Below, one piece after another: positions 31,431-60,023 of a stretch of DNA of 64,000 nucleotides. How positions within the stretch are numbered: position 1 is the first letter of the stretch; every line of letters begins with the position of its first letter. The notes under the pieces are model-generated. The model did not search any database and was not told the DNA's origin. It saw only the letters and a list, made by a program, of their open reading frames with translations. The stretch comes from Dehalobacter sp. CP (lineage in GTDB: Bacteria; Bacillota_B; Desulfitobacteriia; Desulfitobacteriales; Syntrophobotulaceae), in contig VMEE01000095.1 of the NCBI GenBank assembly GCA_009910795.1, positions 1-64,000 on the forward strand. Direction: 5' to 3'. The position numbers were made by a program, and so were the translations under genes.

Positions 31431-31441
31431 AGCACGACCTC

Positions 31442-33736: not shown

Positions 33737-33738
33737 AG

Positions 33739-37935: not shown

Positions 37936-37949
37936 TTTCAGTTGCCCTC

Positions 37950-40412
37950 CTAAAACAATTCGAGAACATCTTCTGATGTTTTGTCATCTTTAAGCGAGAT
38001 TTTATCGAGATCATTAGTGAAAGTTGCGTTGATGAATTCGGGGTATTTGCCAGACAAACCAAGCAGCAGTGGTATCATCGCCTCGCGGTCAAGCCCAAAA
38101 ATTCTGGTGGGTGAAACCCCGTCACGTTCGATATTATCAGAGAGTAAAGCATTCAGCGTGAATTCCTTATAGTCGTTGCACTTCTCAGCAAATTTGTAGA
38201 GAGCGTAGAGGATAACGCGGGGGTCGCTAAGCGAGCAAACCGTCCTTGCTAAGTCGCCGTCGTCGGAAACATAGCCGAAGTTAAGCTTTGTACCAAGAGG
38301 TGTTTCGGTTAGCCGCTTATATGCCTTCGCAACGGAACGTGCTGCTTTTTCTTTCATATCGAGAGCAAGAAGCATGTCTTCTACTGTTTTACGTTCGTAA
38401 AGTCGTCCTATATCAAGGTTAGCAACATACCAGTCGATTTGTGGATTCTCATAAACAAGGTTTGTGAAAATTATCCCCATAGAAGTGTCGCTATCCCAGC
38501 CAATTTCGGATAAGAGCTCAGCAAGCGGTAAACAATGATTTTTGTCTTGTAGGCCTGCATCTTTGAGAAAACGCCTAAAGCATTTTACTTGATTCGGGCC
38601 TAAGTCATTAGAAACAAAGAAATCGTCTTTGTCCTTGAAAAACGATGCAAGCCAAGAAGTCATTGGCGCATGGTCGTCGAAGCAATTAATTGTTTTCATA
38701 GTTTTCTCCTCCTGCGGTATTTTACGGCTTTCGTACATCAAACAACCGCTATTTATTTGGTGGCAGTCATGAATACCGTCAAACTCAAAGTTTTCACAAA
38801 TGTTTGTTTTTTCACGTTTGCATTTGTTTATATTTTTGCAGTGAATGCAGTTATGACATTGAATACAATCCTTTATGTTTATCTTACCATTTTCAAACGT
38901 TATACAACCATTCTTGCAGTTTGTCTCACAAACTTTGCATCCAATACAGTACGCCGCTTTACGAAATACTTGTCGAAATAATTTGCCATATGCAGGGCTC
39001 GCCTTCATTTCAGCTTCTGATATTGCAATTTTGTATCCATCTTTCACTTCAGTAACTTTATATCTAATTTTGCTGTCATCAATTGTTTTTATCCATTCAC
39101 GCCAATCTGAAGCGGGGTTAGTAATTGTTATTGTAATTGTTCCGTTTTTGCATGTTTCGGAATATCGAAGGGTATTTCCAGTTATTCCGCGACCACTACG
39201 CCTATTATCCCATCCACCATTTGTAACATAAGTTTCAAGGTTTTTCTTCCCTAAATCCCAGTTATTCATCCTACATATGATGTCAATATACTGATCAACC
39301 TCGACCTTGTAATTCTGCCGTCTAATGTAGTCGGAAATACCACCCGACATCGGGCAGAACAAGCATCCAGCTCTCCCGTTTCCTTTTTTATAGGCTTCGT
39401 TGATAATCAAATCGTGTGCGTATATATAAAGCCACACTTCAGCAGAAGTCCATTCGAGTATCGAATTATGGCTGTATTGTCCTTTTTGTTTCTTACCATA
39501 GTTTTCATATTCGTATTCAGAGCGTGCAATGCTCTCTTGAGCACGGACACCTACATAATCAAGCCCGACATAATTTTGTTTGCCCGTAACTTCCCTCAGT
39601 ATCAATGTCTGTGGCGTGGACTTATGTACGGAACAGCACCAACGCAACACCCTGGACGGTGGAGCGAACAAGTCCCAGCTTTCGGCTGGTGAAAAATGCG
39701 AACTTGCGCGATAGAACTTCACACTGTCTTTCTTGCACTGTGCCTCAACTTTGTCGATAACGGCGTATGTGTCAGGAAACTCCATGCCCGTGTCTCCGAA
39801 CACCACAACAAAGCTGTCCTGCGGTAGTACGCTCTTAACCAGATCTAACAGCACACAGCTGTCTTTGCCACCGCTAAACGCAACATGGAAGATGTCGAGC
39901 TTGCCAGCATATTTTTCGTATACATCGAGAATCTTCTTAGCGGTAGTTTCTTCAAGCCATCCGAGAATCTCTCGATTGTCATCAATCATTGCTGTTATAT
40001 CAACGGGCCGGAGTTTCCCGCCCGGTTCTGGTAAATCAAGTGCGAAGAGGTTTCCTTTCTTGTCGGTGAATGATTCCCCTTTGTCTTCGGGGTTCTCGCA
40101 GACGGTTTTTGAGGTTGCTTTGCCGTTTGGCGTTTCCCTCCAATCGGGGCAAGTGTAGGCAAGCTGAACAACAGGTGCGTGGTAAACGTCGCCGCCCAAA
40201 AGCGAGGCAACAAGCCGCCCACGATAGTAGTAGCGGTTCGCCTCTGCCCACATACAGGGGGCATCGGTCTGCTGGTCGTATTTCCAGTATTTATCAAACC
40301 CAAGCAAGTTTAGCTCAGGAGCATAGACTGGGCGTGGCTCTTTCGAAAAAACTGCCGGGGTGGAATTAAGTACCAATCCGCCCGTTCTTGCCGAGTATGT
40401 GTAAGAGTACAT
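37950..40412 (-). CDS. brxP: BrxP: PAPS-reductase family protein with ferredoxin and DUF4007-like domains
   Basis: An 820-residue fusion. Residues about 165-420 form a PP-loop ATP pyrophosphatase/PAPS-reductase domain with SGGKDS at 180-185 and a WCC pair near 265. About 490-570 is a cysteine-dense segment (CIGCKVCETNC and CIQCHNCIHC) fitting two 4Fe-4S clusters. About 580-820 resembles DUF4007. DndC and SspD, which insert sulfur into the DNA backbone, share the PP-loop family. In the published BREX classification this gene, in place of the pglX methyltransferase, defines type 4. The likely role is adding a sulfur-containing DNA mark. The N-terminal 160 residues are unassigned. Confidence 0.88.
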   Translation of the reverse strand: MYSYTYSARTGGLVLNSTPAVFSKEPRPVYAPELNLLGFDKYWKYDQQTDAPCMWAEANRYYYRGRLVASLLGGDVYHAPVVQLAYTCPDWRETPNGKATSKTVCENPEDKGESFTDKKGNLFALDLPEPGGKLRPVDITAMIDDNREILGWLEETTAKKILDVYEKYAGKLDIFHVAFSGGKDSCVLLDLVKSVLPQDSFVVVFGDTGMEFPDTYAVIDKVEAQCKKDSVKFYRASSHFSPAESWDLFAPPSRVLRWCCSVHKSTPQTLILREVTGKQNYVGLDYVGVRAQESIARSEYEYENYGKKQKGQYSHNSILEWTSAEVWLYIYAHDLIINEAYKKGNGRAGCLFCPMSGGISDYIRRQNYKVEVDQYIDIICRMNNWDLGKKNLETYVTNGGWDNRRSGRGITGNTLRYSETCKNGTITITITNPASDWREWIKTIDDSKIRYKVTEVKDGYKIAISEAEMKASPAYGKLFRQVFRKAAYCIGCKVCETNCKNGCITFENGKINIKDCIQCHNCIHCKNINKCKREKTNICENFEFDGIHDCHQINSGCLMYESRKIPQEEKTMKTINCFDDHAPMTSWLASFFKDKDDFFVSNDLGPNQVKCFRRFLKDAGLQDKNHCLPLAELLSEIGWDSDTSMGIIFTNLVYENPQIDWYVANLDIGRLYERKTVEDMLLALDMKEKAARSVAKAYKRLTETPLGTKLNFGYVSDDGDLARTVCSLSDPRVILYALYKFAEKCNDYKEFTLNALLSDNIERDGVSPTRIFGLDREAMIPLLLGLSGKYPEFINATFTNDLDKISLKDDKTSEDVLELF

Positions 40413-43243: not shown

Positions 43244-43666
43244 TTATAAATTGCTTTTTAAAAATTTTTCAATATTTTTCAGCGCCTGATTTATGGAATG
43301 AGCTACTCTGCTTTTTCCAACCCTTTCAGTTCTGGCAATTTGTGTTATGCTCATATTCAGGAAGAAGTGAGCATAAAGTCGCTTCGCCTGTTTTTCCGGC
43401 AAGTTGTTTATAGCAGCATACAACTCCTGATTGCTCATTTTTCTTTCATAGATTTCCTCCGGAGATAAAACCAGTAAGATTACATCCTTTTCAATACCGT
43501 CGTCAGCATTAAGAGAATAATACGCCCTGTGTACACGCCTGCGTTCATGGTCAGCATGGTCCTTTCGGTTAAACTGTTTGAATTGATCCGCAACATCCTC
43601 AGTCACTTCAACAAAAAAATCAGATATATTAACAGGGTAGTAATCCCGCAAATTGATCCTTTTCAT
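43244..43666 (-). CDS. sigma-70-like regulator of the conjugative element
   Basis: A 140-residue protein ending in a sigma region 4-type helix-turn-helix (MSITQIARTERVGKSRVAHSI, about 105-125). Short sigma-like proteins of this kind are a standard part of clostridial conjugative elements, usually near the recombinase. The start at 43666 has GGAGG five bases upstream; the upstream open frame to 43783 has none. It is transcribed towards the tRNA-like remnant. Its target promoters are unknown. Confidence 0.8.
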   Translation of the reverse strand: MKRINLRDYYPVNISDFFVEVTEDVADQFKQFNRKDHADHERRRVHRAYYSLNADDGIEKDVILLVLSPEEIYERKMSNQELYAAINNLPEKQAKRLYAHFFLNMSITQIARTERVGKSRVAHSINQALKNIEKFLKSNL

Positions 43667-43926
43667 ATAAACCTCCGTTTTGATTTTTTTGAAAAACCAA
43701 AACAGAGGGTGGTGAGCGGCAATCGACAAAAAATTTTCTTTTACGGCAAAAAACGCCCCATTGGATACAGTCCAAATAAGCATTTATGAGTTTTCGGATC
43801 TTATTATTAGGTTCTGATAGTTCTATATATCGGTGAAACTTTCCCCTTGCGCAGAGTAAGCTTTTTTTAACAATTCGTTATTGATGATGAGGCAAAAACA
43901 AATAATGATATCTGCTTCATCACGCC

Positions 43927-44213: not shown

Positions 44214-44552
44214 ATGGATCACAATGATTTTGACAGATTGGGCGGCATTATTAAAGCTGCCCGCAAAGCGAAAAGACTTACACGGGACCAGTTATCGGAA
44301 CGGATACACATAACGCCACGTTACCTCATGTCCATTGAAAATGAGAATCAAAAACCCAGCTACACCATCCTTTTTCAGCTCATCCGGGAACTAGAGATAT
44401 CCGCGGATACGATCTTTTTCCCTGAAAATAAATGCACGAATCCTGAAAGAGAACAATTAGTCCGGCTGCTTAGTTTTTGTGATGAGCGTGACCTTAGAAT
44501 TGTGACAGCTACGGTGAAAGCTCTGTTAGGATCTAAGCAGCACAAGTACTAA
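44214..44552 (+). CDS. XRE-family repressor of the conjugative element
   Basis: A 112-residue protein with an N-terminal Cro/C1-type helix-turn-helix (about 10-65; LTRDQLSERIHITPRYLMSIENE) and a short helical C terminus (EREQLVRLLSFCDERDLRIV) that may dimerise. Such proteins keep integrative conjugative elements quiet. GGAGGTGA precedes the ATG. It is the only plus-strand gene between 24 kb and 63 kb, facing the c-di-GMP riboswitch and divergent from the sigma-like gene. Confidence 0.88.
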   Translation: MDHNDFDRLGGIIKAARKAKRLTRDQLSERIHITPRYLMSIENENQKPSYTILFQLIRELEISADTIFFPENKCTNPEREQLVRLLSFCDERDLRIVTATVKALLGSKQHKY

Positions 44553-44993: not shown

Positions 44994-45974
44994 CTATTCG
45001 GCATAGCATGCAGATAACTTTCCCCTGACACTATACCCCAAACAACCTCCAATACATTTCTCTTCTTCCCAAAACCTGCATCCGGAACATTCCATAAACG
45101 GAGGATGGCTATATCTTTTACTGTCAATCTCACGCAGAAAATAATCATTCACATCTTGAACGGTATTAAAGTCTTTTATATTTACGCTTAGATAATCTTC
45201 AAAAACGAAACACCGGGCGACGCTCAAGTCGGGCCTTATATCCATAACCGGCGAACAGATTCCCTTGTGAATCAGATCAAAACCCGAGTAGATGAAATTC
45301 ACAAGCTGCTCGTTGGAAAAGATGCACTTGGGCGGATTATTGCAATCAACATGAGGAGAAATCCCATTTCTATGGCAATCGTCTAAAAAGTCAACTAATC
45401 CGGGCACATAACTTTCATAATGTTCAAGACTGCCCTTCTGGTTATTATCCGAGGGTACGGTAATGCTGTACCTGATGGTCTTTAATTTTAGTCTCTTGCT
45501 TTGCTCAATAATATATTGATATTGAAAGTCCGGCTCAAATATATTAATGCCGAGCGTAACCTGGGGTTCGATATTCTTTCTGCGATATTCGAATACCAGG
45601 TTTTCTACATTATCTATTGTCCTATTATATAGATGCTCACCGATTACATCCGGCCCATTTAAATTAATCAAGAAGGAAACCTTATTATCCGCAATGGATC
45701 GGCTCAAGGCATGATCTAAAGCAATGGCATTGGTGAAAATCTGGATTCTCCGGAAAAATGGATCATCTATTCCTTGATTCACCCACTTTTCAAAGTTCGG
45801 ATGCAGTGTCGGCTCCCCCCCGAGCAGCCTTAAATCAACATGTGCCGACTTCTTAAAGAAATCGATTATATAGCCATAATTATCATCGGAAATATCGGCC
45901 TTGTTCTTGGGATCACAGTTGGCAAAGCAATAGGAACATTTTAAGTTGCAGTAATTATTTAACATAATATTCAT
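44994..45974 (-). CDS. radical SAM protein with SPASM-like C terminus (RiPP maturase candidate 2)
   Basis: A 326-residue radical SAM enzyme. The 4Fe-4S motif CNLKCSYC (CxxxCxxC) is near residue 9, LGGEPTLHP follows, and the C-terminal cysteine-rich region (CSGCRF, then CIGGC, then CYAE) suggests auxiliary clusters as in SPASM or twitch domains. The start at 45974 has GGAGG five bases upstream. It is the last gene of the operon, just after the triplet-repeat protein that is its likely substrate. Substrate and reaction are inferred. Confidence 0.85.
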   Translation of the reverse strand: MNIMLNNYCNLKCSYCFANCDPKNKADISDDNYGYIIDFFKKSAHVDLRLLGGEPTLHPNFEKWVNQGIDDPFFRRIQIFTNAIALDHALSRSIADNKVSFLINLNGPDVIGEHLYNRTIDNVENLVFEYRRKNIEPQVTLGINIFEPDFQYQYIIEQSKRLKLKTIRYSITVPSDNNQKGSLEHYESYVPGLVDFLDDCHRNGISPHVDCNNPPKCIFSNEQLVNFIYSGFDLIHKGICSPVMDIRPDLSVARCFVFEDYLSVNIKDFNTVQDVNDYFLREIDSKRYSHPPFMECSGCRFWEEEKCIGGCLGYSVRGKLSACYAE

Positions 45975-46083
45975 AGGAACCTCCATTCCACCGCGTCACT
46001 GGCGGCACATATCGCAATTTTGAAGGAGAAGGGGATATCTTTATAACATTTGGACAGCAAAAAGAATAGCAATGAAGCCTTAT

Positions 46084-46851
46084 CTAGCGGGTAATGACAT
46101 TTTGAAAGTGTTTTACGTTTGTAATGGCGACAGCATTGCTCGATCCGGAATTATTGCTGGCAGTAACATAAAAAGTTATCGGCTGGACAGTTGTCCCGGC
46201 GGGAATCGCAAAAGATCCCACCCATGTATTTCCTCCGGTATTTGTAAAAGCAATTACTGTTGAATTTAAGGAATTGGTCGCGGTGACGGAAGTGGTGTTC
46301 CCCGTCGTTGTTGCTGTAATCTGGATTGTGGTGTTAGGGAAGGCGACGGCCTGTACACTTGCTACAACCGAGGGGGGCGGTGTCCAGTTATTCCAATCGC
46401 TGTAATTGGAATAATTGCTGTAAGCGCCCCAATCGCCATAGTTGCTATAGTTGCTGTAATTAGAATAAGCAGTCCAGTTCGAATATTGGCTCCATGTTTC
46501 GGTATGGTTTTCCCATTGCGTATGGTTTTCCCAAACACCGGCATTCGAGTAATTGGCGTTCCAATTTACATAATTGCCGTAAGTGTTGTTGTAGACATCA
46601 GTATAAGCGCCATAATTTCCATAATTGGTCCATCCGGAGTTAGGCCAGGACCATTCCACCCAAGCAAAAGCCTTTTCGGGCTGCAAGGAAAACTTAAGGC
46701 CCAAAGCCTTGGAGTATTTGCCCTCCTTGGCTTTGGGCCCATCCGGATGATTGTTGTCAAGAACCAGGTCTTGGGTTATTGAAGCATGCAGGACGCTTAA
46801 TGAAACAAAGGCAAACAGCAATTTTTTTAATCTGGAAAACGTTCTTGCCAT
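46084..46851 (-). CDS. secreted aromatic triplet-repeat protein, candidate cyclophane RiPP precursor
   Basis: A 255-residue protein. The N terminus is basic then hydrophobic (RLKKLLFAFVSLSVLHAS), like a signal peptide or leader. Residues about 64-158 hold an array in which W, Y or H recurs every third residue, usually as aromatic-X-N/D/Q/A (WTN, YGN, YTD, WEN, HTQ, YSN, WNN). From 120 to 156 the spacing is almost perfect. There is no cysteine. About 100 Thr/Ser/Asn-rich residues follow, resembling an Ig-like beta sandwich. Radical SAM enzymes that form three-residue cyclophanes act on just such aromatic-X-X motifs. It lies between two radical SAM genes. The start at 46851 has AGGTG six bases upstream; a GTG at 46860 is possible. 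Confidence 0.7.
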   Translation of the reverse strand: MARTFSRLKKLLFAFVSLSVLHASITQDLVLDNNHPDGPKAKEGKYSKALGLKFSLQPEKAFAWVEWSWPNSGWTNYGNYGAYTDVYNNTYGNYVNWNANYSNAGVWENHTQWENHTETWSQYSNWTAYSNYSNYSNYGDWGAYSNYSNYSDWNNWTPPPSVVASVQAVAFPNTTIQITATTTGNTTSVTATNSLNSTVIAFTNTGGNTWVGSFAIPAGTTVQPITFYVTASNNSGSSNAVAITNVKHFQNVITR

Positions 46852-46852
46852 A

Positions 46853-48046
46853 TCATTCACCTACCGCACAGGACAATGGCTCCGCCTGCCCTTTCTCCGC
46901 AACATAATCCTCGATCTGTTCCGCTTTATAAAAACAATACTTGCATGTGACCCCGCACTGGGCGGCGCATTGCGGCTTTTTCTCCAGGAAATAATCAAGC
47001 TTGGGCAAAAACTCAAATATCTCCTTCATCTTCAGTGTTCCGTACGGATGGAAAACCTTGTTCATAAAACGTGAATTATAAGTATTATAGAATTCATTCA
47101 GCGCGTATTCCGGATCGGTAACGCCAAGCATATAGGCCTTTATCTTATTGACCAATTCCGGCTTGGGGTGATCCCTGCCAACCAGCTTGATGCTGTTAAC
47201 CCCTGCTTTCTCATAGCAGGGGATTTCCCAAGGGTAAATAATCCTATTCAGCACCATTTGAATGGCCGGACTTTTAAAGGTAATCTGATCACAGATGAAT
47301 TTAGGGAATTCCCGGAATAACGGGCTGCATTTATAGATGTTTTCCTGCCTGCCGAACAAGGCATAGTGAATATTCTTGGTCGGACAACAAAAGATGCAGC
47401 CTTCATCGGCCATCAATTCCAAACCAACATCAGGCAACAACGTTTTAAACGATTCGATAAAAGTAAAATCCTTATTGAGATCGGAAGCGGGAATGACAGT
47501 GGAGATTCCTAGATTTTCGCTGGCATACTTGGCCTGGTTGATTGACCGGATATCCATCATCGTTGAAGCGTTTACGGCCAATCCGCTGAATTCCTCTTTC
47601 AAAAAATCAGCAAGAAGCTGGCTCCCAACCGTAATACTTCGCACCCCGATCTCCACCAGATGCCCGACAAACTGCTTCAGCTGGGGAATGTTGACTTCAA
47701 AGTCATACAGGGAAATGGTTGAGATATTATTCATCAGATAAATGAACGCCATCCCGTTATCCGAAAGCATTTTTATATAAGGCCTTAAATCTTCCAGTAT
47801 CCGGATTTTGCCGCTGTCTTCCTGCAAATTAACCGACCGGCCATGTTCATACCCTGATTTGGCGTAAGATGTAACAGGCAGACTGTTATATACGGAACGG
47901 ATTTTATACTTCGCCTTATTCAGGCTGTTGAGCTTTATTAACTCCTGAATATACCCATAGTCAAATAATAAAGGAACTGAGTAGTACAGTTCCTGCGGCT
48001 GGTTCGGGGGCTCAAACTTTTGCTTTTTCTTAAAGATATTGATCAT
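46853..48046 (-). CDS. U32-family (peptidase U32-like) iron-sulfur protein
   Basis: A 397-residue protein resembling the U32 family. It has a TIM-barrel-like region with SITVGSQLLADFL and MDIRSINQAKYASENLG, then cysteines GCIFCCPTKN and a C-terminal cluster QCGVTCKYCFYKAE. U32 members studied (such as UbiU/UbiV, TrhP and RlhA) carry a 4Fe-4S cluster and take part in hydroxylation of tRNA, rRNA or quinones; others are called proteases. Here it sits one base from the triplet-repeat gene and 16 bases after a radical SAM gene, so it probably acts on the same peptide. The start at 48046 has GAGAGG upstream. Confidence 0.75.
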   Translation of the reverse strand: MINIFKKKQKFEPPNQPQELYYSVPLLFDYGYIQELIKLNSLNKAKYKIRSVYNSLPVTSYAKSGYEHGRSVNLQEDSGKIRILEDLRPYIKMLSDNGMAFIYLMNNISTISLYDFEVNIPQLKQFVGHLVEIGVRSITVGSQLLADFLKEEFSGLAVNASTMMDIRSINQAKYASENLGISTVIPASDLNKDFTFIESFKTLLPDVGLELMADEGCIFCCPTKNIHYALFGRQENIYKCSPLFREFPKFICDQITFKSPAIQMVLNRIIYPWEIPCYEKAGVNSIKLVGRDHPKPELVNKIKAYMLGVTDPEYALNEFYNTYNSRFMNKVFHPYGTLKMKEIFEFLPKLDYFLEKKPQCAAQCGVTCKYCFYKAEQIEDYVAEKGQAEPLSCAVGE

Positions 48047-48062
48047 ACCTATCAACCTCTCT

Positions 48063-49523
48063 TTAAATCGCGAGAAACTCCTTCAACTTGTTTTCCGCGT
48101 TGACAGGAGTTTCTATCCGTTTAATCGATTCTTCTAAAATATTTTTCATCATCTTGGCGCTCCGGAATTGATGCCTGAATAAAAAGTTCAAGAATCTTGG
48201 GTTATATTTCGGCATATCTTCATAATCAATCTCATTAATAACCCGTATGATATGGCTGATCACGTTCCGGTGGGTGTAGCAATTTTCAGGCTCCGGCTTA
48301 TTCATGGTCAGATCATACTGGATATTGTCATTGTAGCAGCCGCTATGGCAGCTGTAGAAATAATCACAATCGCCGCAATGCTGCAGCATCCTCCGGGTTC
48401 CCTCGTACCATCTTATATGGTTGGGATGATTTAAGATATCCTCAACCGATTCCATCTCAAAAATATTCCCGAAAGACACGGCGGCGCTCTCCGGCCAGTC
48501 CCGGCCGCAATGATAAATCGTCCCGTCGGGCTGAGTTGAAAACCAGTAATCCTTTCCGGCGCAGTCCGTAAACGCGCAGGAACCACCGGCATCCAAGGCG
48601 GCCATCAAATATCGCTCGCAAAGATCCGAATCGGCCGGTCGATACGTATCTAAAATCCAATAGTCAAAGAATTTACAGATTTCCTCAGCAACCATTTTCC
48701 CGTCCAGGGTATAGGAATTCATATTTTTATGGGCCGCAAAGATGAGGTTCATCTTGCAGCCCAGGCCTAAGCGTTTAAAGTATTCGTAATCGTCAATTAT
48801 GTGGTGGATATTATCTTTCGTAATGATCATGATGGCGCCGCCCAAGACCTCATTTTTATCCGCCGTGGCAATCGACCGCATCAACCTGTCGGTATTTTTC
48901 CGGGTCAAATGGTTTGTCAAGCCATCGAAACTGAAGCCCGGCCGGATGTTCCACTTCCTCAAAACAGCGGCGTTCTCATCATCAATCAGCGTTAAGTTGG
49001 ATTGCATGCAAATATTGACTTTCTTAAATTGCTGCTTAATCAGGGCGTTTGCTTCATCATAAAATTCTTTTCCAATCAGTAAAGGTTCCCCGCCGTGCCA
49101 GATCCAAGTGCCGACATTCACATCTTTGAACACTTTCAAAATCTGTCTGACCACTTCCAGCGTGACTTTGTTCCCTTCCGCGTTAAGATCCTTGCGAAAC
49201 ATCACATCATAACAATACGGACAATGCAGGTTGCAGGCATGCGTCGTTTTTACGATCAAAGTAGTTTTATCGGGATACGTAATATTCTCCGCGCCAGCCA
49301 TCTTTTTGAAATCGATATCGCTCTCAAAATACTCCTTATGCCTTTTTATTTGTTTGAGAGACATGGAAAACATCAAGTTCTTATTGCCGGCAATAATGTC
49401 CAGAATCTCCCCGGAACTCATGCCGGGCATGATTTCCTGGTAAACACAGCTGCGCAGTTCCCTTTCGTATTTGTTGTTGAATTTACGGAACTGATACAAC
49501 TCATCTTTTGCTATTAAATTCAT
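48063..49523 (-). CDS. radical SAM/SPASM protein (RiPP maturase candidate 1)
   Basis: A 486-residue enzyme. The N-terminal 90 residues could bind a peptide leader. The radical SAM motif CNLHCPYC is near residue 96, with IWHGGEPLL following. The C-terminal SPASM cysteines (CAFTDC, IYHCGRDW, CGDCDYFYSC, CYND) imply two auxiliary clusters. The organisation is that of peptide-modifying SPASM enzymes, such as sactipeptide, cyclophane or anaerobic sulfatase maturases. The ATG at 49523 has AGGGGG seven bases upstream. The adjacent triplet-repeat protein is the likely substrate. Confidence 0.88.
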   Translation of the reverse strand: MNLIAKDELYQFRKFNNKYERELRSCVYQEIMPGMSSGEILDIIAGNKNLMFSMSLKQIKRHKEYFESDIDFKKMAGAENITYPDKTTLIVKTTHACNLHCPYCYDVMFRKDLNAEGNKVTLEVVRQILKVFKDVNVGTWIWHGGEPLLIGKEFYDEANALIKQQFKKVNICMQSNLTLIDDENAAVLRKWNIRPGFSFDGLTNHLTRKNTDRLMRSIATADKNEVLGGAIMIITKDNIHHIIDDYEYFKRLGLGCKMNLIFAAHKNMNSYTLDGKMVAEEICKFFDYWILDTYRPADSDLCERYLMAALDAGGSCAFTDCAGKDYWFSTQPDGTIYHCGRDWPESAAVSFGNIFEMESVEDILNHPNHIRWYEGTRRMLQHCGDCDYFYSCHSGCYNDNIQYDLTMNKPEPENCYTHRNVISHIIRVINEIDYEDMPKYNPRFLNFLFRHQFRSAKMMKNILEESIKRIETPVNAENKLKEFLAI

Positions 49524-49534
49524 AAGCATGCCCC

Positions 49535-50362
49535 CTATATCTTCAGCTGGGTGTTTTCTTCAGAATCGACCTTCCAAACCCCGTTTACCTGCAGCAAAAT
49601 AATTCTTTCCTCATATTTGCTTACCCAAAAGTTGCCGCCATTCTGCGCCGCATTGATGACGATGGTAAACTTCAGGAATGCCCCTTCCTGATTATTTAAT
49701 TGGGGGATTTGATTAAAGCTTATATCCTCAAGGCATAAAGACTTCATCTGTCTAGTATCCTTGTTTTTGATGCTTTCCGATCTGAAATTCGGGAAAAATT
49801 TGTCCAACGAACTTTGGAAATTCGCCGTCGTGTAACCGCTTCCCGGCATTTGCGACATTGCTTCAAGCTTCTTATAATCGGTAGATTTAAACTCTACCAA
49901 CCACCGGGCTGCCGCTTCATAAGCAGCTTTTTCTTTGTCTGTTTTGGTGGCATTATTTTGGACATAAACCTGCTGTCCCAAGCTGTACAAAGATAATCCG
50001 GAATTGGCGGGAAGGTTCTGCTCCGGCGCAGGCCCAGGTTCAGGTTTGCTTGGCGTAACCGGGTCAGGCTCGCTTGGCTGATTCGGTTCAATCTTTTGCT
50101 GGCTTTGGGGCTCGACACTGGGCTGGGCTTTTGTTTCGGTTTCGGCTTCGGTTTTGATTTCCGGCTGCGGAGCTTGCTCCGGTTCAGTCTCTTTAATCGG
50201 CTCAAGCTCTTTTTCCGGGCTTTGATTGTCTTTTTGAATCTGCGTCTCCTGCTGAGCCGGGGTATTTTGTACCGGCTCAGTCTTTTTGGGGCTGCATCCA
50301 AAAAGAAGCATGGACAAAACAAGAAGCAGAATGGAAAATGTTTTAACTCTTAACTTTAACAT
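49535..50362 (-). CDS. proline/glutamate-rich lipoprotein
   Basis: A 275-residue lipoprotein: signal peptide with lipobox LFGC (Cys near 23), a disordered linker of about 95 residues rich in Pro, Glu and Gln, and a C-terminal folded domain (about 120-275) with a W-K-V-D ending like small extracytoplasmic beta domains. It should be anchored outside the membrane with a spacer through the wall. It lies between the pilus genes and the radical SAM genes; a role in assembly or display of the pilus or modified peptide is inferred. Confidence 0.8.
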   Translation of the reverse strand: MLKLRVKTFSILLLVLSMLLFGCSPKKTEPVQNTPAQQETQIQKDNQSPEKELEPIKETEPEQAPQPEIKTEAETETKAQPSVEPQSQQKIEPNQPSEPDPVTPSKPEPGPAPEQNLPANSGLSLYSLGQQVYVQNNATKTDKEKAAYEAAARWLVEFKSTDYKKLEAMSQMPGSGYTTANFQSSLDKFFPNFRSESIKNKDTRQMKSLCLEDISFNQIPQLNNQEGAFLKFTIVINAAQNGGNFWVSKYEERIILLQVNGVWKVDSEENTQLKI

Positions 50363-50609
50363 GGTCGTATCCTCCTTTCGGGCCTACCGGAACATCCTCA
50401 TCACCTATTTTGATATAGGTTTGGGAAAGTGTTTTTTTCTCTGAGGGGTCGGCAGTTCTGCGCCGTTCGTCCATATTCATCTCCATTTCCTCCAGTTGAG
50501 ACAATATGGCGAGCTTGATAAATCTTTCCCTGCTCATCCCAATCGAAGCGCTGAAGCCTTCCGTTCTTTGATTCAAATTGTCAGAAACATCCAATTCCCA
50601 TTTAAACAT
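50343..50609 (-). CDS. small protein of the Tad-pilus operon, function unknown
   Basis: An 88-residue soluble protein. The middle (GFSASIGMSRERFIKLAILSQLEEMEM) looks helical, and the C terminus is Gly/Val-rich. No family is recognised. The start at 50609 has AGGAGG nine bases upstream. It overlaps the lipoprotein start by 20 bases, implying coupled translation. Confidence 0.6.
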   Translation of the reverse strand: MFKWELDVSDNLNQRTEGFSASIGMSRERFIKLAILSQLEEMEMNMDERRRTADPSEKKTLSQTYIKIGDEDVPVGPKGGYDHVKVKS

Positions 50610-50651
50610 ATCCTTTTTCCTCCTAAAAAACAATGTTACTAAAAAAGAATG

Positions 50652-51179
50652 TTATGAAAACAAGAATGAAGTAAGTATATAGCATGAAGAGATCAACACA
50701 GCTCCTCCTCCGGGAAAGGGTCTGCTCTTGACGCCATTGGCAAAGGAATTATTGTTTTCTCCAATAGCGATTAATACTAGCGAATCTGTTTTTACATCAT
50801 GAATCGTTCGGGATAAGCCTTTGACCCTTACAGTTTGAAAAAAGAAATAAAAGAAAGCTGAAAACATGAAGATAGCTGAGTTAAAGAAGAAGGCCCCGGG
50901 TGTTAAAAACAGGCTGAGAGCCAACAGCAATTTAACATCACCTCCCCTCATCGCCCCGTGGGAATAGACGAATAAGAGAATTAAGAAAAGGAAAAAGAAA
51001 GACAGCCAGTAACTTGCGGAATATGCTTTGGCGTATATAAGATAAAAAATTCCGAGAATTAAGCCCGGAATCGTCACCCAATTATATATTTTCCGCTTCC
51101 GCCAATCCGTCAGAACACAAATTGACAGCAGTATTAAAGGGATCAGCAATGCCAAATCCTTAACCATTTCCTGCATCAT
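50652..51179 (-). CDS. tadV: A24-family prepilin peptidase (TadV/CpaA type)
   Basis: A 175-residue membrane aspartyl protease with about five helices. One catalytic Asp is in LTDWRKRKIYN (near residue 25), the other in MRGGDVKLL (near residue 80), the expected pair. Like other TadV/CpaA proteins it lacks the methylase domain. It should process the Flp-like pilins and TadE-like pseudopilins encoded just upstream. Confidence 0.88.
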   Translation of the reverse strand: MMQEMVKDLALLIPLILLSICVLTDWRKRKIYNWVTIPGLILGIFYLIYAKAYSASYWLSFFFLFLILLFVYSHGAMRGGDVKLLLALSLFLTPGAFFFNSAIFMFSAFFYFFFQTVRVKGLSRTIHDVKTDSLVLIAIGENNNSFANGVKSRPFPGGGAVLISSCYILTSFLFS

Positions 51180-51193
51180 CCTTACATTTCAAA

Positions 51194-51718
51194 TTATGGC
51201 GAGATTTTCAAAGCAGCGTCTTTGGCTACTTTGATCGTCCAATAAGGGGTTGAATTTACGATTTGGGTCAAGCCGCGCTTTACTCTGACTTCGATATAAA
51301 CCACATAGGACGGCTCCGTGATAGCGTGACCGTCTATCGGGCTTAACGCCGGCAAAACATCGGAATTATAGGTTTTATAATATAGCGTTGCTTTATTGAC
51401 ATATATAACCGGCGAGCCAGGAAGGGGATTCAGACTATTGTCTAATGATAGATTTTTCTTTACCATCTCCAGAAAAACAACGTCCGCTTGCACTGGGTCT
51501 ATTTCTAAAACCCCTTGGTTTAATTTGGCCTGGTCGGTTTGCTGGCTGGCCGCTAAAGCGGCGAATTTTACACTATCCGTTATTCCCCGTTTAATGTTTA
51601 TGGCGTGGTAGTAGTCCGTCCCCCAGCCAATAAGGGCAAGAGAAATACTCAGAAAAATCAGCAGTTCAATTAGAGATGAACCCCGGTCGTCTCTGATTAT
51701 TTTAAATAGCTTCTTCAT
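51194..51718 (-). CDS. TadE/F-like pseudopilin
   Basis: A 174-residue protein with a short basic N terminus, then RGSSLIELLIFLSISLALIGWG, the class III-type prepilin segment with Glu at position 5 after the likely cleavage site. A soluble C-terminal domain follows. It fits TadE/TadF minor pilins. The start at 51718 is favoured because the prepilin segment then begins within about 15 residues. It follows the next pseudopilin by 11 bases. Confidence 0.72.
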   Translation of the reverse strand: MKKLFKIIRDDRGSSLIELLIFLSISLALIGWGTDYYHAINIKRGITDSVKFAALAASQQTDQAKLNQGVLEIDPVQADVVFLEMVKKNLSLDNSLNPLPGSPVIYVNKATLYYKTYNSDVLPALSPIDGHAITEPSYVVYIEVRVKRGLTQIVNSTPYWTIKVAKDAALKISP

Positions 51719-51729
51719 AAACACCTCAT

Positions 51730-52197
51730 TTAAGGCAAATATTGACTCATGATCGTTTTGGTTACCGTAACCGTTTCCGATTTGGCAACCGGACGACCGC
51801 CTGACCAATCGGTAAATTGTCTGGGCCCGGTTATGGAAATGGTTATATATTGTCCGTAAGCAACGCGGCTTGCCTCACTGCCCGATCCGGTGATCGTGAA
51901 TAAACCGGTATCGACACCGGTGTGTTTCAGCTGATCTTTAATTAGATTCCGGACCTCTGTCGTGGTTCCTCCGACAACTGCAGCCCTTTCCAACCCGAGA
52001 TTCACGGCATTAACCATGGAGCCCTGCAGGTTATTAAGGAAAAACATCGATATGAAGGTGAAAAATATCACCAGCCATAAGGCAAAGACGATTAGGAATT
52101 CAATCAAGGTGGAGCCCCGTTCATTATTGGGGTTTCTCATTGGTTTTTTTCGTAATTTCAGCATAATTTCAAGTGGATAGCACACGTCTGAACGCAT
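51730..52197 (-). CDS. TadE-like pseudopilin
   Basis: A 155-residue protein with the segment ERGSTLIEFLIVFALWLVIFF, typical of TadE prepilins, and a C-terminal beta-rich domain. The start at 52197 has GAGGG eight bases upstream; an ATG at 52164 is also possible and would leave a shorter N terminus. It is paired with the next TadE/F-like gene. Confidence 0.72.
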   Translation of the reverse strand: MRSDVCYPLEIMLKLRKKPMRNPNNERGSTLIEFLIVFALWLVIFFTFISMFFLNNLQGSMVNAVNLGLERAAVVGGTTTEVRNLIKDQLKHTGVDTGLFTITGSGSEASRVAYGQYITISITGPRQFTDWSGGRPVAKSETVTVTKTIMSQYLP

Positions 52198-52437: not shown

Positions 52438-52617
52438 TTAATTCAATTTGCTCATTCCGGCTGAGTCATTGGCAATTTTAGCGGTTATTGTATTGTAAAG
52501 AATCACCGCAATGCCTACTGTTGCCAGAATGCCCCCCAACAGCAAGACGATATTTTGAACCAGATCCCCCCTTTCATCACGCAGCAATGCTGCCAGACTG
52601 CAGGCAATTTTTTTCAC
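52438..52617 (-). CDS. Flp-like mini-pilin 2
   Basis: A 59-residue protein starting at GTG 52617 with GGAGG nine bases upstream; the longer open frame overlaps tadC. The RGDLVQNIVLLLGGILATVGIAV core closely matches mini-pilin 1. Both should be cleaved by the TadV-type peptidase and assembled by TadA, TadB and TadC. Two tandem pilin paralogues suggest a heteropolymer or alternative subunits. Confidence 0.75.
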   Translation of the reverse strand: MKKIACSLAALLRDERGDLVQNIVLLLGGILATVGIAVILYNTITAKIANDSAGMSKLN

Positions 52618-52630
52618 ATATTGCCACCTC

Positions 52631-53533
52631 CTACATGATTTGGCCAAGGCTTTGGTTAGCCTGGTATAAGAGCGGGACAAGAATGACTACCGGGATCATG
52701 ATAAAAGGAATGGCGGTCAAGGCTTCGACAAGCATTTTTTTGTTTTTGTACCGCCTTATTTCTTTTAATCCCTCAATATATTCAATGTCCCGGGACCGGC
52801 TGGCCATATAGGCAACCATATTGGAACTATCGATGGTGATAGATTGCATCAAAATATCCGCTAAGTTTTTCAATTCATCGATGTCTGTTTCTTTACTCAA
52901 TTTAGCAAGCGCCGGTTTTGGCCCTGTTATGGACATATCCTGCAGGAGCTTTTCCAGGTGAGGCCGCAATTTATTGGTCGCGAATAAGGCCCCACGAATA
53001 GAATCAACTATGGTTTCTCCCGCTTTTCTCAAGTCAACAATATAAGCCATGATATCCGACAACTCATTGATGAGGGCATTTTGGTACTGGTTGTAAAAAT
53101 ACGCAAGAATGGCTGTGGGCGCTATGCTCCCCACAAAAAAGCCGGTACAAATCAGCCCTATTGCCATCAGCAAGTCTTTTGTGGAAAAGCCTGCAAAGCC
53201 AAAAAGAATGGCAAATATGAGGGGGGATAATTTTTGAAAAGTCCTAAATTCCGCATATCCCATCGGCATTGCTCCAGGCTGTTTGAGTATTTCCAGCATG
53301 TTTTCCGAACGATTCTGTCTCGGGGTTTTGCTTAATAATTTAGAGATATATTTTGCCGTCTTTTTGCGAAGTTTTTCTAAAGCAGGTTCCTGGGCTTGTC
53401 TATACGAAAGCGCGGTAGTGCCGAGAGAATTTATCCTCTTCGACTCCCTGCGGTTCGTCTTAATAAAAAACGCCGCCAAAAGCAGCATCAAACCCAGGGA
53501 TATTCCCATAGAACAAATCAATAGTATCGTCAT
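52631..53533 (-). CDS. tadC: TadC inner-membrane platform protein
   Basis: A 300-residue type II secretion system F-domain protein with an N-terminal helix, two mid helices (about 105-155), and a C-terminal pair (about 265-290). The cytoplasmic domain is around 160-240. It pairs with TadB as the platform of the Flp/Tad pilus motor. It lies six bases after tadB. Confidence 0.85.
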   Translation of the reverse strand: MTILLICSMGISLGLMLLLAAFFIKTNRRESKRINSLGTTALSYRQAQEPALEKLRKKTAKYISKLLSKTPRQNRSENMLEILKQPGAMPMGYAEFRTFQKLSPLIFAILFGFAGFSTKDLLMAIGLICTGFFVGSIAPTAILAYFYNQYQNALINELSDIMAYIVDLRKAGETIVDSIRGALFATNKLRPHLEKLLQDMSITGPKPALAKLSKETDIDELKNLADILMQSITIDSSNMVAYMASRSRDIEYIEGLKEIRRYKNKKMLVEALTAIPFIMIPVVILVPLLYQANQSLGQIM

Positions 53534-53539: not shown

Positions 53540-54496
53540 TTAATCCTCCATTGATAAGAATTTCAGCAGCAGCGCACCCTCAATTAAGACAGAGATAATA
53601 ATAGCATTCGTATAAAGGTGTCCTAATGAAGATTGTTTTACCAGGGCCAATGAATCCGGCCAAACAAGGCTTACGACTAGATACGTAAGAATCATTACCA
53701 GGGTAAAAGCCACCGCTTTGGAGATTAGCGGATTAAGATCCTCTTTAATGGATTGCACCCTGTTTTTTCTTGATCTGATTTTGTCCGTAAGCCTGTATAA
53801 AAGCTCTTCCGTGTCACCCCCGGCCAGCCTTGAAGAAACAATAACATTGTAAAAATCCCTGAATGACTGCAGTTTCAAAATTATAGACACTTTGTAGACA
53901 ACCGTGCCAAATTCTTCACCTTTATTCACCCGGGACTGGATTCGGCTGAACAAAGACCGGATTTGAGAAGGCATTGCAGGAATTGAATCCCAAGTCGCGG
54001 CTTCAAGATTATTACGCACGATATAATTGTTTAAGATAAGGCTGAAAGTGTTCAAGGCCTGTTTATTCAGCCTTCTTCGCGTACTGTGATAGATAAGATT
54101 GATCATAACCCAAGGCATCAGCAAGCCGATGACCGTAATAATAATCATGCCGAAAATATTATGGCTTACGATTAAAGCCCCCGGACTTTGGTAAGTGGGA
54201 TTCGGAATCTTCTCCGTAAGAGTTATTATTGAAAGGAAAAAGGAAATAAAGCTAAACCCGATACTCATAAAAAAGAGAGCTTTTAAGCTCAGCTTTAGAT
54301 TTGTTATATAGATTCTTTGCTCGTAATATCTTGCAAAATTGCTTATCCTGATGTTGTTTTTTACTTTATCTTGAAAATGGTTAATCCTTTCATTAAAGAA
54401 TACGGATACTTGTTTCTTTCCATTTTTTCCAAGAAACCAGGCGATTACGGATAATAGGAGCCCCATGCTTATGCCATAACAAAGAACAAGCGTCAT
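53540..54496 (-). CDS. tadB: TadB inner-membrane platform protein
   Basis: A 318-residue F-domain protein with an N-terminal helix, a helix pair near 80-140, and C-terminal helices. The central cytoplasmic T2SSF domain includes SRLAGGDTEELLYRLTD. The ATG at 54496 overlaps the tadA stop by four bases (ATGA), a sign of coupled translation, and has GAGGTGG upstream. Confidence 0.85.
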   Translation of the reverse strand: MTLVLCYGISMGLLLSVIAWFLGKNGKKQVSVFFNERINHFQDKVKNNIRISNFARYYEQRIYITNLKLSLKALFFMSIGFSFISFFLSIITLTEKIPNPTYQSPGALIVSHNIFGMIIITVIGLLMPWVMINLIYHSTRRRLNKQALNTFSLILNNYIVRNNLEAATWDSIPAMPSQIRSLFSRIQSRVNKGEEFGTVVYKVSIILKLQSFRDFYNVIVSSRLAGGDTEELLYRLTDKIRSRKNRVQSIKEDLNPLISKAVAFTLVMILTYLVVSLVWPDSLALVKQSSLGHLYTNAIIISVLIEGALLLKFLSMED

Positions 54497-55917
54497 ATCA
54501 ACCACCTCTTAACATCACCGGCGTTTTTTCTGCCCTTAGCCATAAGACGGTAAACAAGTTTTTTGCTTATGGGGTTAAAGAACATTTTTCCGTCGCTGTC
54601 TCTTTTAAAGATATCTTTAATCACAATATTGCACTCCGCATCCAGCTCCAATTCAGCGACTTGGGTGATTTCAATTTTTCTGTCTACTATTCCTAATTGA
54701 ATGATAATATCTACTGCGGTGACGATTTCAGTGTTAATGACCTTATCGCTGACGTTGGAAATCGCTTGAACCTTGGTTCTTAATTCCTGGCAGCATGCTT
54801 CAGCGTCATAGGTATGAATGGAAGCCATTGTATTGGCATGGCCGGAACGCATGGCCCTAAGCGTATACATGGCTTCGACCGGAAAACGGATCTCACCGAC
54901 CAGAATCACATCCGGATCCATTCTCATAACCTGGGGGTAGATTTCCTCCACCCCGATAGGATTGTATTTTGTGTCTCGTTCCAGCATTTCAACAACCTCC
55001 AGGCCAGGATAGTATTTAGCTAGCTGCAACTCCGGCCCGTTTTCGATAGTGATTATCCGCAAACCGCTTTCGGGATCGCCGGGACTATTTTCATCCGGAA
55101 TAAGATCCTGAAAAATCGAGGCCAGGGTACGGATCAAGGTTGTTTTTCCGGTGTGAGTCCCGCCGCTCACGATGATCGTAGCACCCGCTCTTACCACATC
55201 CCGGATAAAATCAAGCTGCCGGTAGGAATGTTCTTCGCTGGGGATATTTTTGATATCTTCATACTCTTTGTTAGGAAAGTTGCGGGGCTTGCCTCTCTCT
55301 GATGTCTTTAACGTCCCGATCTTTTCAAGTTCTTCCAGGGAAAAGTTTTTATCCCTGAATCTCCGAATATTTAAGGTAATTCCGTGGCTGGGGACGATGG
55401 CGCTTTTATTGATGACAACCCTGCTTCGATCCGGAAGCCAGGCATTATCCACCATGGGGCTGCCCTCGTTGGCTTCCGAGTGGCAAGTAAGCAAGATGCG
55501 TTCCGTTATTTTTTCAAGATGGGCCAGATCCGTAAACTGAATATCCTTGGCTAAATACCTGACTCCATTCTTTTTATACGTGATTTGATATGGACCGTTT
55601 ACGCAAATTTCCGTTATCTCCGGGTCAAGAAGGAAGTCATGGATAACATCATAGCCAATAATGGTTTTATAGGCCTCCCAAGCAATTTCATCGATGCTCA
55701 TACCGGGCACATCGAGTTTCTCATGGCGAATGATATCTTTTATAACATTGAGGATTTGTTTTTGACATTCCCCTACCCCATAAATAGCGTCGTTAAGCAA
55801 TTTTGGGTGGTTTTCAGTCAACATGGACTGGACAATACTTATTGTTTTATATAGGTGGGTTTTGCTGTCTGTGTCAGATGCTTTTGAGTCAACGACTTTC
55901 GCTGAACTGATTCTCAT
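54493..55917 (-). CDS. tadA: TadA/CpaF pilus assembly ATPase
   Basis: A 474-residue VirB11/CpaF-type secretion ATPase that powers Tad pilus extension. Walker A GGTHTGKTT is near residue 252, the VGEIRFPVEAMYTLRAM Walker B/Asp box follows, and HANTMASIHTYDA is the His box. The N-terminal CpaF domain precedes it. The start at 55917 has GGAGG eight bases upstream. Confidence 0.92.
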   Translation of the reverse strand: MRISSAKVVDSKASDTDSKTHLYKTISIVQSMLTENHPKLLNDAIYGVGECQKQILNVIKDIIRHEKLDVPGMSIDEIAWEAYKTIIGYDVIHDFLLDPEITEICVNGPYQITYKKNGVRYLAKDIQFTDLAHLEKITERILLTCHSEANEGSPMVDNAWLPDRSRVVINKSAIVPSHGITLNIRRFRDKNFSLEELEKIGTLKTSERGKPRNFPNKEYEDIKNIPSEEHSYRQLDFIRDVVRAGATIIVSGGTHTGKTTLIRTLASIFQDLIPDENSPGDPESGLRIITIENGPELQLAKYYPGLEVVEMLERDTKYNPIGVEEIYPQVMRMDPDVILVGEIRFPVEAMYTLRAMRSGHANTMASIHTYDAEACCQELRTKVQAISNVSDKVINTEIVTAVDIIIQLGIVDRKIEITQVAELELDAECNIVIKDIFKRDSDGKMFFNPISKKLVYRLMAKGRKNAGDVKRWLI

Positions 55918-55945
55918 GTAAAGTTCCTCCAATCTGAATTCCGCA

Positions 55946-56776
55946 TCAGCGTGGACTCCCGAAGCGCGGCGCGGTAAAAAATATACGGCCTTTTTTTACG
56001 GTCTTAGATAAATGAAGCTGCAGCAGAATGTTCTCAATTGCTTTATCAAACTTGCCGTATTTTAATAAGGGAATCAGTGAAACCGTGGAGTTATCATACA
56101 ACACCTTGGAAATACCGGGTATTGTCCCCAGCAAAGGTAGCCCAAGATTGCTCTCAATTTTGTCTTTCGTGTACAGCGCCTTATTGGAATATTGGTTGAT
56201 GATCAGTTTGAACCTATTGATATCCATATTTCGGGCATGCAGATTATTAAGCCATTTAGCGGTGTTCTCAATCGTGTTTCTGTTTTGGTCTACAATGACC
56301 AAGACATCTGTCGCTGCCCTTAGCGCCACGTCTGTAGGAATAATCAGCGTATCGCTTTGGACGTCAATAAAGAGGATATCTACAAGATCTGACAACTCAG
56401 TTATGATTGTACAGGCTTGCATATCTCCCAATTTATCTATTAATTCCGGTTCTTTCGTTAATCCCGTCCAGCATAATAAATTAGGAAGGTTCTTTGTTAT
56501 ATGGGCGTTTTCTTTAAGCAAATCGTGATAACTATAATTATCCTGCCAAGACTTAAGGATATATTCCATCGAGCTTTCTTTATCTTCCAGCTCTAAAAAC
56601 AAGTGGAGACAGGGCGCTATTAACGAAAAATCCAACAACCCTATTTTTAAGTTTGTTTCCTTTGCCAGCTTCCGGGCCAGGTTGCAAGCAAGCGTTGACT
56701 TTCCAACACTGCACACACTCCACAAGACGATTATTTTCTTCAACTGCTGATCAACTGCATTATTTTCATCAGCCAT
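55946..56776 (-). CDS. TadZ/CpaE-like ParA-family protein
   Basis: A 276-residue MinD/ParA-type protein that should localise the Tad machine. The nucleotide loop reads VCSVGKST: the usual first lysine of the deviant Walker A (KGGVGKT) is replaced, as in some CpaE/TadZ proteins with weak or no ATPase activity. The later LFIDVQSD and VIVDQNRNTIE segments are as expected. The start at 56776 has GGGAGG seven bases upstream. It lies between cpaB and tadA. Confidence 0.78.
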   Translation of the reverse strand: MADENNAVDQQLKKIIVLWSVCSVGKSTLACNLARKLAKETNLKIGLLDFSLIAPCLHLFLELEDKESSMEYILKSWQDNYSYHDLLKENAHITKNLPNLLCWTGLTKEPELIDKLGDMQACTIITELSDLVDILFIDVQSDTLIIPTDVALRAATDVLVIVDQNRNTIENTAKWLNNLHARNMDINRFKLIINQYSNKALYTKDKIESNLGLPLLGTIPGISKVLYDNSTVSLIPLLKYGKFDKAIENILLQLHLSKTVKKGRIFFTAPRFGSPR

Positions 56777-56796
56777 ATGATTTCCTCCCATAACGT

Positions 56797-57552: not shown

Positions 57553-57645
57553 ATTAAACACCTTCCTTAATTGTTCACAGCTTTGCTCATCCAATAAGCA
57601 TTCGTTAAATCCAGCAAAGCAGAATACTCATATTTTTCGAGTGAA

Positions 57646-59571: not shown

Positions 59572-59615
59572 TACCCCACCACCTTCCCCGCTGAATCTTA
59601 ATCTATTTGAAGAAT

Positions 59616-60023
59616 TTACCGCTCCATTACGGAAAGCTGCATCCCTGGGTAATCCTGGCCCTGGCAATATTCTGGATAGCGCAGCCGGATCGCTTCAAAA
59701 AAGTAGGGTGCAAAGCGGCAGTCGAAAAGTTCATACGGCGCCGAGTATCTTTCTTTCCCCTCCTCCATCCATCCGTTCCAAAGATTAAAGGCCAGACGGC
59801 ACAACCGAATAGTTCCTCCGGTCTGCCAAGCCGCCGCAAGGTTCTGCGGTTTGATGCAATTTTCCTTAAAGTCAAATAAGGAACGGATATGCTCCCTTGT
59901 TTCCTTGCTAATTCCCATGGCGTAGAAAAAAGACCTGTGGTAGACGTCGGTATTACCCGCCGCCGCGAGCATATCGTAATAAAAATTCTCATGTTCTTTG
60001 CTTGCGAACCTAGTATTTTCCAT
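59616..60023 (-). CDS. conserved conjugative-element protein (DUF6075-like)
   Basis: A 135-residue soluble protein beginning RFASKEHENFYYDML, with YHRSFFYAMGISKETREHI and a C-terminal FAPYFFEAIRLRYP. It resembles small proteins repeatedly found next to virB4 in Tn1549-type elements (DUF6075 by memory). Function unknown. It lies 69 bases after virB4 and 44 bases before the wall hydrolase gene. Confidence 0.65.
   Translation of the reverse strand: MENTRFASKEHENFYYDMLAAAGNTDVYHRSFFYAMGISKETREHIRSLFDFKENCIKPQNLAAAWQTGGTIRLCRLAFNLWNGWMEEGKERYSAPYELFDCRFAPYFFEAIRLRYPEYCQGQDYPGMQLSVMER

Follow-up and report, generated by a model that had tools for sequence, protein, structure and literature searches.

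A conserved three-residue aromatic array encoded with radical SAM and U32-family genes beside a Tad pilus operon in Dehalobacter: a candidate triceptide-type substrate

Introduction

The closest described counterparts of the locus reported here are the triceptides. Published examples carry Trp, Phe, Tyr or His at position i and Arg, Asn, Asp, Ser or Ala at position i+2, according to the available portion of PMC11002830. There, Ala as the third residue has precedent with His, and with Tyr in a mutant substrate, and no precedent is given for Gln or Glu. Our locus is like the triceptide systems (XncB, OscB/GrrM, YxdB, HaaB and YhhB) in its Aro-X-X motifs, with Trp, Tyr or His first and Asn, Asp or Ala third, and in the SPASM enzyme encoded beside the candidate substrate. 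It differs in scale, with about 25 motifs in a 258-residue protein that has a folded C-terminal domain, in the company of a U32-family gene and a pilus operon, and in an enzyme that scores below the cut-offs of the listed families.

A second parallel is the ChlB/ChlH pair. ChlB is named a 'multiple cyclophane synthase' in a reference of PMC12636437, and its partner ChlH, an alpha-ketoglutarate HExxH enzyme, adds hydroxyl groups to Asp and His of a cyclophane already in place, as given in the available part of that paper. The pairing of a crosslinker with a hydroxylase is shared, whereas the hydroxylase partner here would be a separate U32-type gene product needing no O2. The dynobactin and darobactin maturases (DynA, DarE) supply the best NCBIfam profile for the larger radical SAM protein of the locus; these enzymes make small antibiotic peptides, in contrast to the repeat protein found here.

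The His-Xaa-Ser substrate motif occurs in repeat form. The system built on it (HxsA/HxsB/HxsC) resembles our locus in joining a three-residue-motif substrate to two radical SAM genes, and the TvgA/TvgB pathway to poly-cyclopropylglycine resembles it in a radical SAM enzyme that acts many times on a repeat array (both from the available portion of PMC9062424). TvgA/TvgB is unlike it in having a TVGG repeat, a change within one Val and no aromatic motif, so far as that portion describes it. Assignment to the His-Xaa-Ser system was rejected, with HxsB scores of 51.1 of 370 bits for the larger radical SAM protein (rSAM1) and 26.3 of 370 for the smaller (rSAM2), and an array without an HXS repeat; HxsC was not among the best 25 families listed for either protein.

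Results

Architecture of the array protein

The window analysed is a stretch of 64,000 nucleotides from Dehalobacter sp. CP (contig VMEE01000095.1, positions 1 to 64,000). The array protein gene occupies 46084..46860 on the minus strand, giving 258 aa from a GTG at 46860 or 255 aa from an ATG at 46851, with the stop at 46084. A first-pass annotation of the same DNA had drawn the frame as 46084..46851; the frame is real, its end being the ATG, with the GTG as an alternative start. From the N terminus, the protein consists of a single hydrophobic stretch (residues 14-28, mean Kyte-Doolittle 2.1), a linker, the aromatic array (67-159), a PPP sequence and a predicted beta sandwich (166-253). The linker sequence KAFAWV, residues 63-68, was invariant in 12/12 aligned proteins. 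The protein holds no cysteine, as had been noted at first pass. Between residues 63 and 250 it also lacks both Lys and Arg, and the array would therefore escape tryptic proteomics.

Parsing from residue 77 gave 25 Aro-X-X motifs over residues 77-158, encoded at 46387..46632 on the minus strand. The first residue was Tyr in 15, Trp in 8 and His in 2; the third was Asn in 15, Ala in 4, Asp in 3, Gln in 2 and Glu in 1. Thus 22 of the 25 carry a third residue published for triceptides (Asn, Asp or Ala) in the available text of that literature, and the two Gln and one Glu do not. In known precursors, as stated at first pass, such motifs number just a few. Phe was absent from all 320 motifs parsed in 12 array proteins, those of the window included. 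The spacing of three runs unbroken from residue 123 to 159; upstream it is interrupted by one-residue spacers at 89, 93, 103 and 122 and by a three-residue spacer at 107-109.

AlphaFold2 models computed with six sequences predicted an N-terminal helix at residues 2-31 and seven strands at 166-253. Confidence in the C-terminal domain, taken by tens of residues, ranged from pLDDT 56 to 89, with 70-89 over 181-240, and the aromatic array was predicted to be disordered (pLDDT 21-29). A fold search with this model against the PDB gave no match reaching E 0.001. The Ig-like C-terminal domain suggested at first pass therefore stands in outline as a beta sandwich, and the label 'Ig-like' is dropped. 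Promoter and terminator scans yielded about as many sites as shuffled sequence.

Spacing and conservation of the array

Analysis of residues 64-158 showed that 20 of the 28 aromatic-to-aromatic gaps equal three. In 100,000 composition-preserving shuffles the mean was 4.2 and the maximum 17, and none reached 20, which bears out the three-residue aromatic periodicity reported in the first-pass annotation. Each of 12 array proteins, comprising nine loci (window included) and the records P0002-P0004, had 18-22 such gaps, and 0/5000 shuffles reached the observed value in any of them. The longest run of gaps equal to three was 12 in the array protein and at most two in 11 other proteins of the module and pilus operon.

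Ser codons within the YSN units were mixed (TCG, TCT, TCC and AGC), indicating that the array is not a microsatellite and that selection acts at the protein level; a microsatellite origin was rejected on this codon mix. Codons were compared across nine loci in 36 pairs, with motifs parsed from W67; the pairs are non-independent and the figures descriptive. At aromatic positions there were 54 non-synonymous differences in 968 pair-sites, and all 54 exchanged one aromatic residue for another. Middle positions differed in 196/976 pair-sites, third positions in 129/976 and spacers in 80/388, with 378/2100 in the leader and 498/3492 in the C-terminal part. These data show that the aromatic position is strongly constrained and that the third position is not constrained beyond background, at the level of the C-terminal domain. 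This lack of added constraint argues against a strict requirement for Asn.

Array length changed between loci through the copy number of YSN-type units, mostly in three-residue steps, and the natural variants held 23 to 28 parsed motifs per locus. One aromatic was lost in P0002, known from a protein record only, where Asn replaces the Tyr at window residue 83. In P0003, one extra Ala lies between units and the Aro-X-N units re-phase afterwards. Both this insertion and the one-residue spacers shift the phase and leave the units intact, which favours discrete i/i+2 units over a continuous helix.

The radical SAM proteins

Two radical SAM genes had been reported to flank the array gene, and both were found. 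The larger, rSAM1 (488 aa, 48063..49529, minus strand), has a CX3CX2C motif at residues 99-106 and a SPASM motif, CX2CX5CX3C, at 385-398, and scored over the cut-offs of PF04055, PF13186 and TIGR04085. Its gene lies two genes upstream of the array gene in 8/8 loci. A sequence search of the PDB at E 0.001 returned ChlB (9gm3) as the sole match, at E 2.9e-6, over 119 residues of the radical SAM core.

Among the best 25 of 64 NCBIfam families matching rSAM1, DynA ranked first with 128.1 bits against a cut-off of 450, followed by an anaerobic sulfatase maturase at 105.6, TIGR04083 at 102, AmcB at 83 and GrrM/OscB at 72, all far under cut-off. Every crosslinker model among those 25 (DynA, AmcB, GrrM, YhhB, FxsB and XyeB) was below its curated cut-off. 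DynA was also the top model for the two most diverged rSAM1 copies (66% and 75% identical), for which all six models again fell below cut-off, and its score over the three copies scanned was 126-128 of 450 bits. We propose from these profiles that rSAM1 resembles the crosslinkers, although the sulfatase maturase, which is not a crosslinker, scores nearly as well. The triceptide-type interpretation of the first-pass annotation thus draws support from an array conserved at the protein level, from its i/i+2 Aro-X-N/D/A grammar and from the ChlB match, but the assignment of rSAM1 to a named cyclophane-synthase family does not follow, since its scores lie below their cut-offs.

The smaller protein, rSAM2 (330 aa, 44994..45986, minus strand), has a CX3CX2C motif at residues 13-20 and a C-terminal CX2CX7CX3C at 300-315. 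Its nearest NCBIfam models, among the best 25 families listed, were PapB (47 bits) and MoaA (43 bits), and its PDB neighbour was SkfB. Relatives with 29-30% identity occur in two further genomes (G018 and G022; L044:1501-2535 and L045:1498-2544), where each gene follows one for a protein bearing ferredoxin-type cysteines and precedes a transporter-like frame; no array was found in either genome. This other setting suggests another role for that family and that rSAM2 may not be a crosslinker. Its gene does lie beside the array, but with distant relatives in an array-free setting its role is uncertain.

The U32-family protein

Between the array gene and that of rSAM1 lies a gene missing from the first-pass annotation, encoding a U32-family (U32 oxidase-like) protein of 400 aa (46853..48055, minus strand; Pfam PF01136). 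It has a Peptidase_U32 domain and, in the predicted model, a TIM-barrel-like fold. Those U32 oxidases that have been characterised take part in ubiquinone synthesis or modify RNA bases, and prephenate is the likely oxygen source, according to the available portions of PMC11574389 and PMC6747719.

A profile search collected 81 U32 proteins, near relatives included. Seven cysteines were invariant in 41 sequences (the window protein and 40 of the 81 hits), at residues 220, 224, 255, 363, 367, 371 and 374. Their arrangement, C220-X3-C224 ... C255 with a C-terminal CX3CX3CX2C, does not match the canonical four-cysteine motif CX6CX15CX3C, which binds a 4Fe-4S cluster, and is in this unlike the U32 oxidases UbiU/UbiV, RlhA and TrhP. 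UbiU and UbiV themselves depart from that motif, as the available text on them has it, so the mismatch does not exclude an Fe-S cluster in this protein. Neither the UbiU nor the TrhP model matched at E 1, and no UbiU or UbiV structure was among the matches listed in the fold search.

Beyond the eight loci described below, distant U32 matches occurred in G074, G025 and G103, with weak ones in G010, G018 and G053. Four distant relatives (P0009-P0012) had 31-45% identity. In one genome of the same class, a RiPP-like cluster (L036:7788-15417) combines a U32 gene with four radical SAM genes and an FkbM methyltransferase. This cluster encodes a 90-aa peptide ending FHTDNHSNW, that is, His-X-Asp and His-X-Asn, which we count in favour of the pathway proposed below. 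A cluster in G103 that by eye resembles nonribosomal peptide or glycosylated metabolite synthesis also encloses a U32 gene (L035:9163-10332).

On viral contigs, the U32 profile found one distant locus, L033. There (L033:1407-3380), genes for chorismate mutase, DAHP synthase and a U32 protein stand in a row after a dCMP-deaminase-type gene, and the virus may make prephenate for a U32 hydroxylase. A T4-like phage (L071; PQ464591.1, 18199-27266) encodes, close to arabinose 5-phosphate isomerase and thymidylate synthase, a U32 protein that is annotated as 'peptidase' and may be a DNA-base hydroxylase.

Genomic setting

The array module belongs to a long minus-strand series. From 62787 downwards, the genes encode PrgI (62422-62787), a VirB4/TraG-type ATPase (60093-62429) and an NlpC/P60 hydrolase (57646-59667), all conjugation-type genes, then a CpaB-like SAF protein (56797-57594), a CpaE-like ATPase (55946-56791), the TadA-type pilus ATPase (54493..55932; T2SSE), a TadB-like protein (53540-54505; T2SSF, below cut-off) and a TadC-like protein (52631-53533; assigned by position, with no Pfam match). 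These are followed by a small single-helix protein that is Flp-pilin-like in position and form (52438..52680; no Pfam match), two TadE/TadF-like minor pilins named by form (51730-52197 and 51194-51808; Pfam matches weak or none), a prepilin peptidase (50652..51179; PF01478), a small protein (50343..50633) and a lipoprotein-like protein (49535..50362), and then by rSAM1, U32, array and rSAM2. The small protein has a weak RelB-like match (E 0.053) and is present in 8/8 loci by tblastn at 59-97% identity; the lipoprotein-like protein has LFGC near its N terminus and is present in 8/8 loci at 34-83% identity.

Intergenic gaps from lipoprotein to rSAM1 to U32 to array are 5, 7 and -8 bases, the last for the GTG start, with which the array gene overlaps the stop of the upstream U32 gene by 8 bases. 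The rSAM2 gene follows 97 bases after the array gene. Matches over cut-off to T2SSE, Peptidase_A24, SAF and CbiA identify a Tad (type IVc) pilus locus; its weaker parts are TadB, TadE and RcpC, with matches below cut-off, and TadC and Flp, assigned by position only. Neither the Tad operon nor the conjugation-type genes nor the sister copies of the module had appeared in the first-pass annotation. Its place beside the Tad genes does not in itself make the array protein a part of the pilus.

Within the window, the Tad operon directly follows the conjugation-type genes (56797-62787), likewise in 7/7 upstream stretches, and the two may form one mobile unit with a built-in pilus. Beside the module lie two regulator-like genes, for a sigma-70 region 4 protein (43244-43783, minus strand) and an HTH protein (44214-44552, plus strand; RstR-like, 38 of 80 bits). 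Further along, consecutive BREX defence genes occupy 29949-40412 on the minus strand: BrxL (29949-31430), PglZ (31442-33736), BrxC (33739-37935) and BrxP (37950-40412).

Distribution of the module

A search of 61 relatives recovered the array protein from six genomes. The same six held rSAM1 at E 1e-40, the U32 protein at more than 600 bits (with weak matches in four others) and rSAM2, which extended to the two further genomes noted above. Two of the six hold two copies, giving eight loci. Among the relatives, the records that bear names belong to Candidatus Dichloromethanomonas elyunquensis, to Dehalobacter and to a Peptococcaceae MAG. In a sample of 398 genomes of the phylum, the protein occurred in four, all of the nearest genus. 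A plasmid search for array homologues gave no match; rSAM1 relatives on plasmids numbered 171 records, all below 60% identity and none covering 80%.

The order lipoprotein, rSAM1, U32, array, rSAM2 was intact in 8/8 loci. In three of them (L016, L019 and L020), three or four frames separate the module from the prepilin peptidase and yet the module is intact, which suggests that it coheres as a unit. Tad genes were present at 8/8 loci, those of G006 being divided between two contig ends. Conjugation-type genes occurred in 7/7 upstream stretches, one per locus; the eighth contig (G016) starts inside TadA, so that the upstream stretches represent seven loci.

Array homologues in genomes lacking the radical SAM genes had been named at first pass as contrary evidence; none was found in the 61 relatives or the 398 phylum genomes. 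All positives belong to two genera of one family, so the co-occurrence is close to a single event and weak as independent evidence. The joint occurrence of array and enzymes is consistent with functional coupling and is not strong proof of it.

Discussion

From the array, its conservation, the module and its setting, we infer a pathway of crosslinking, hydroxylation, export and surface role, in which the array protein would be the substrate of its own maturation module, one associated with the pilus. An N-terminal segment would direct the newly made protein to the membrane. At many or all of the approximately 25 Aro-X-N/D/A sites, rSAM1 would join the Tyr, Trp or His ring to the beta carbon two residues on, so that a floppy array becomes a stiff chain of small rings. 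Hydroxylation of the array would fall to the U32 protein, which is related to O2-independent hydroxylases; it would be the counterpart, working without O2, of the alpha-ketoglutarate hydroxylase ChlH on preformed cyclophanes. The finished rod would stay at the membrane or outside it, its C-terminal beta sandwich forward at the cell surface, and would work with the Tad pilus or the mating apparatus in adhesion, as a tip or minor subunit, or in mating contact. That rSAM1 crosslinks the array, with a surface role, we judge slightly more probable than otherwise. The full reading, a pilus-linked, structural and non-antibiotic RiPP rod with about 25 cyclophanes that a peptide-acting U32 protein hydroxylates, without O2, on their rings or bridge carbons, is tentative and as a whole rather unlikely.

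Repeats rich in Tyr, Ser and Asn can be sticky unaided, and the array might be an unmodified adhesive or amyloid-like surface segment, with the radical SAM and U32 proteins working on something else encoded at the pilus locus, for instance a pilin or the lipoprotein. Such a segment would suit an array with no predicted structure (pLDDT 21-29) and third positions no better conserved than the C-terminal domain, and rSAM2 relatives are indeed found away from any array. Sticky segments need no strict spacing of three, however, yet this spacing is kept in 12/12 proteins. The array gene also sits between the U32 and rSAM2 genes, and 0/11 other module and pilus proteins have a comparable aromatic run. 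We consider this explanation unlikely. Less likely still is that the main change is oxidation of the rings or of the third residues, with the U32 protein turning Tyr into DOPA or hydroxylating Asn/Asp, and another job for the radical SAM proteins. The array motifs offer 15 Tyr, U32 oxidases are already known from ubiquinone synthesis and RNA bases with prephenate as likely oxygen source (PMC11574389, PMC6747719, as above), and the viral U32 relative is encoded with DAHP synthase and chorismate mutase, a route to prephenate. Against this, the i/i+2 grammar with Asn or Asp third is that of cyclophane formation and is needless for ring hydroxylation, and the SPASM enzyme rSAM1 appears to resemble crosslinkers.

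Two further explanations were considered. Read in a shifted frame, the array could be a series of N-glycosylation sequons (N-Aro-S/T), and that of the window contains 10 N-X-S/T sequons. A sequon arises automatically, however, wherever the middle residue is Ser or Thr; sequons vary from 7 to 10 between copies while aromatic spacing is steady, and STT3/PglB (PF02516) was detected in 0/7 related genomes, with the control positive in 4/14 reference genomes. This explanation is disfavoured and highly improbable. The spacing might instead be the functionless by-product of a recent tandem duplication of a 9-base unit, as the mostly three-residue steps in YSN-type copy number between loci could suggest. 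But neighbouring units differ in codons, using both Ser codon classes, and the codons of residues 120-157 show no identical nine-base units. Units with Trp, His and Tyr are intermixed, and the aromatic class survives substitutions between loci, so that we give this possibility hardly any weight.

If rSAM1 does crosslink the array, the chemistry would be known, that of the triceptides. In the texts available we found no description of a triceptide of this size, with a folded C-terminal domain, set among pilus and conjugation genes or partnered by a U32 protein. In the open-licence literature, no paper joining a Tad pilus with radical SAM was found. For U32 with radical SAM and RiPP, that literature gave only an enterococcal proteomics paper, available in part, and the available portions of its triceptide papers describe no pilus-linked or long array, an absence that is not proof. 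Type IV pilus genes do appear in two papers on Dehalobacter genomes, whose available portions name neither radical SAM nor U32.

The array protein, rSAM1, the U32 protein and rSAM2 make a compact test set, with natural variants of 23 to 28 motifs. If the proposal is true, cyclophane chemistry is not confined to small peptides but includes a large structural protein of a surface filament, and these genes would offer a genetically encoded route to stiff aromatic rods under anoxic conditions. To the quinones and RNA for which the literature available knows the U32 family, a protein would be added as substrate, encoded next to conjugation-type genes. The enzymes would then be an anaerobic counterpart of the ChlB/ChlH pair and, were Tyr the target, would place DOPA-like residues in an anaerobe. 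Dehalobacter is a genus studied for groundwater clean-up, and the presence of two copies in two of six genomes, all kin of Dehalobacter, means that the finding would bear on cell attachment or DNA exchange in these organisms.
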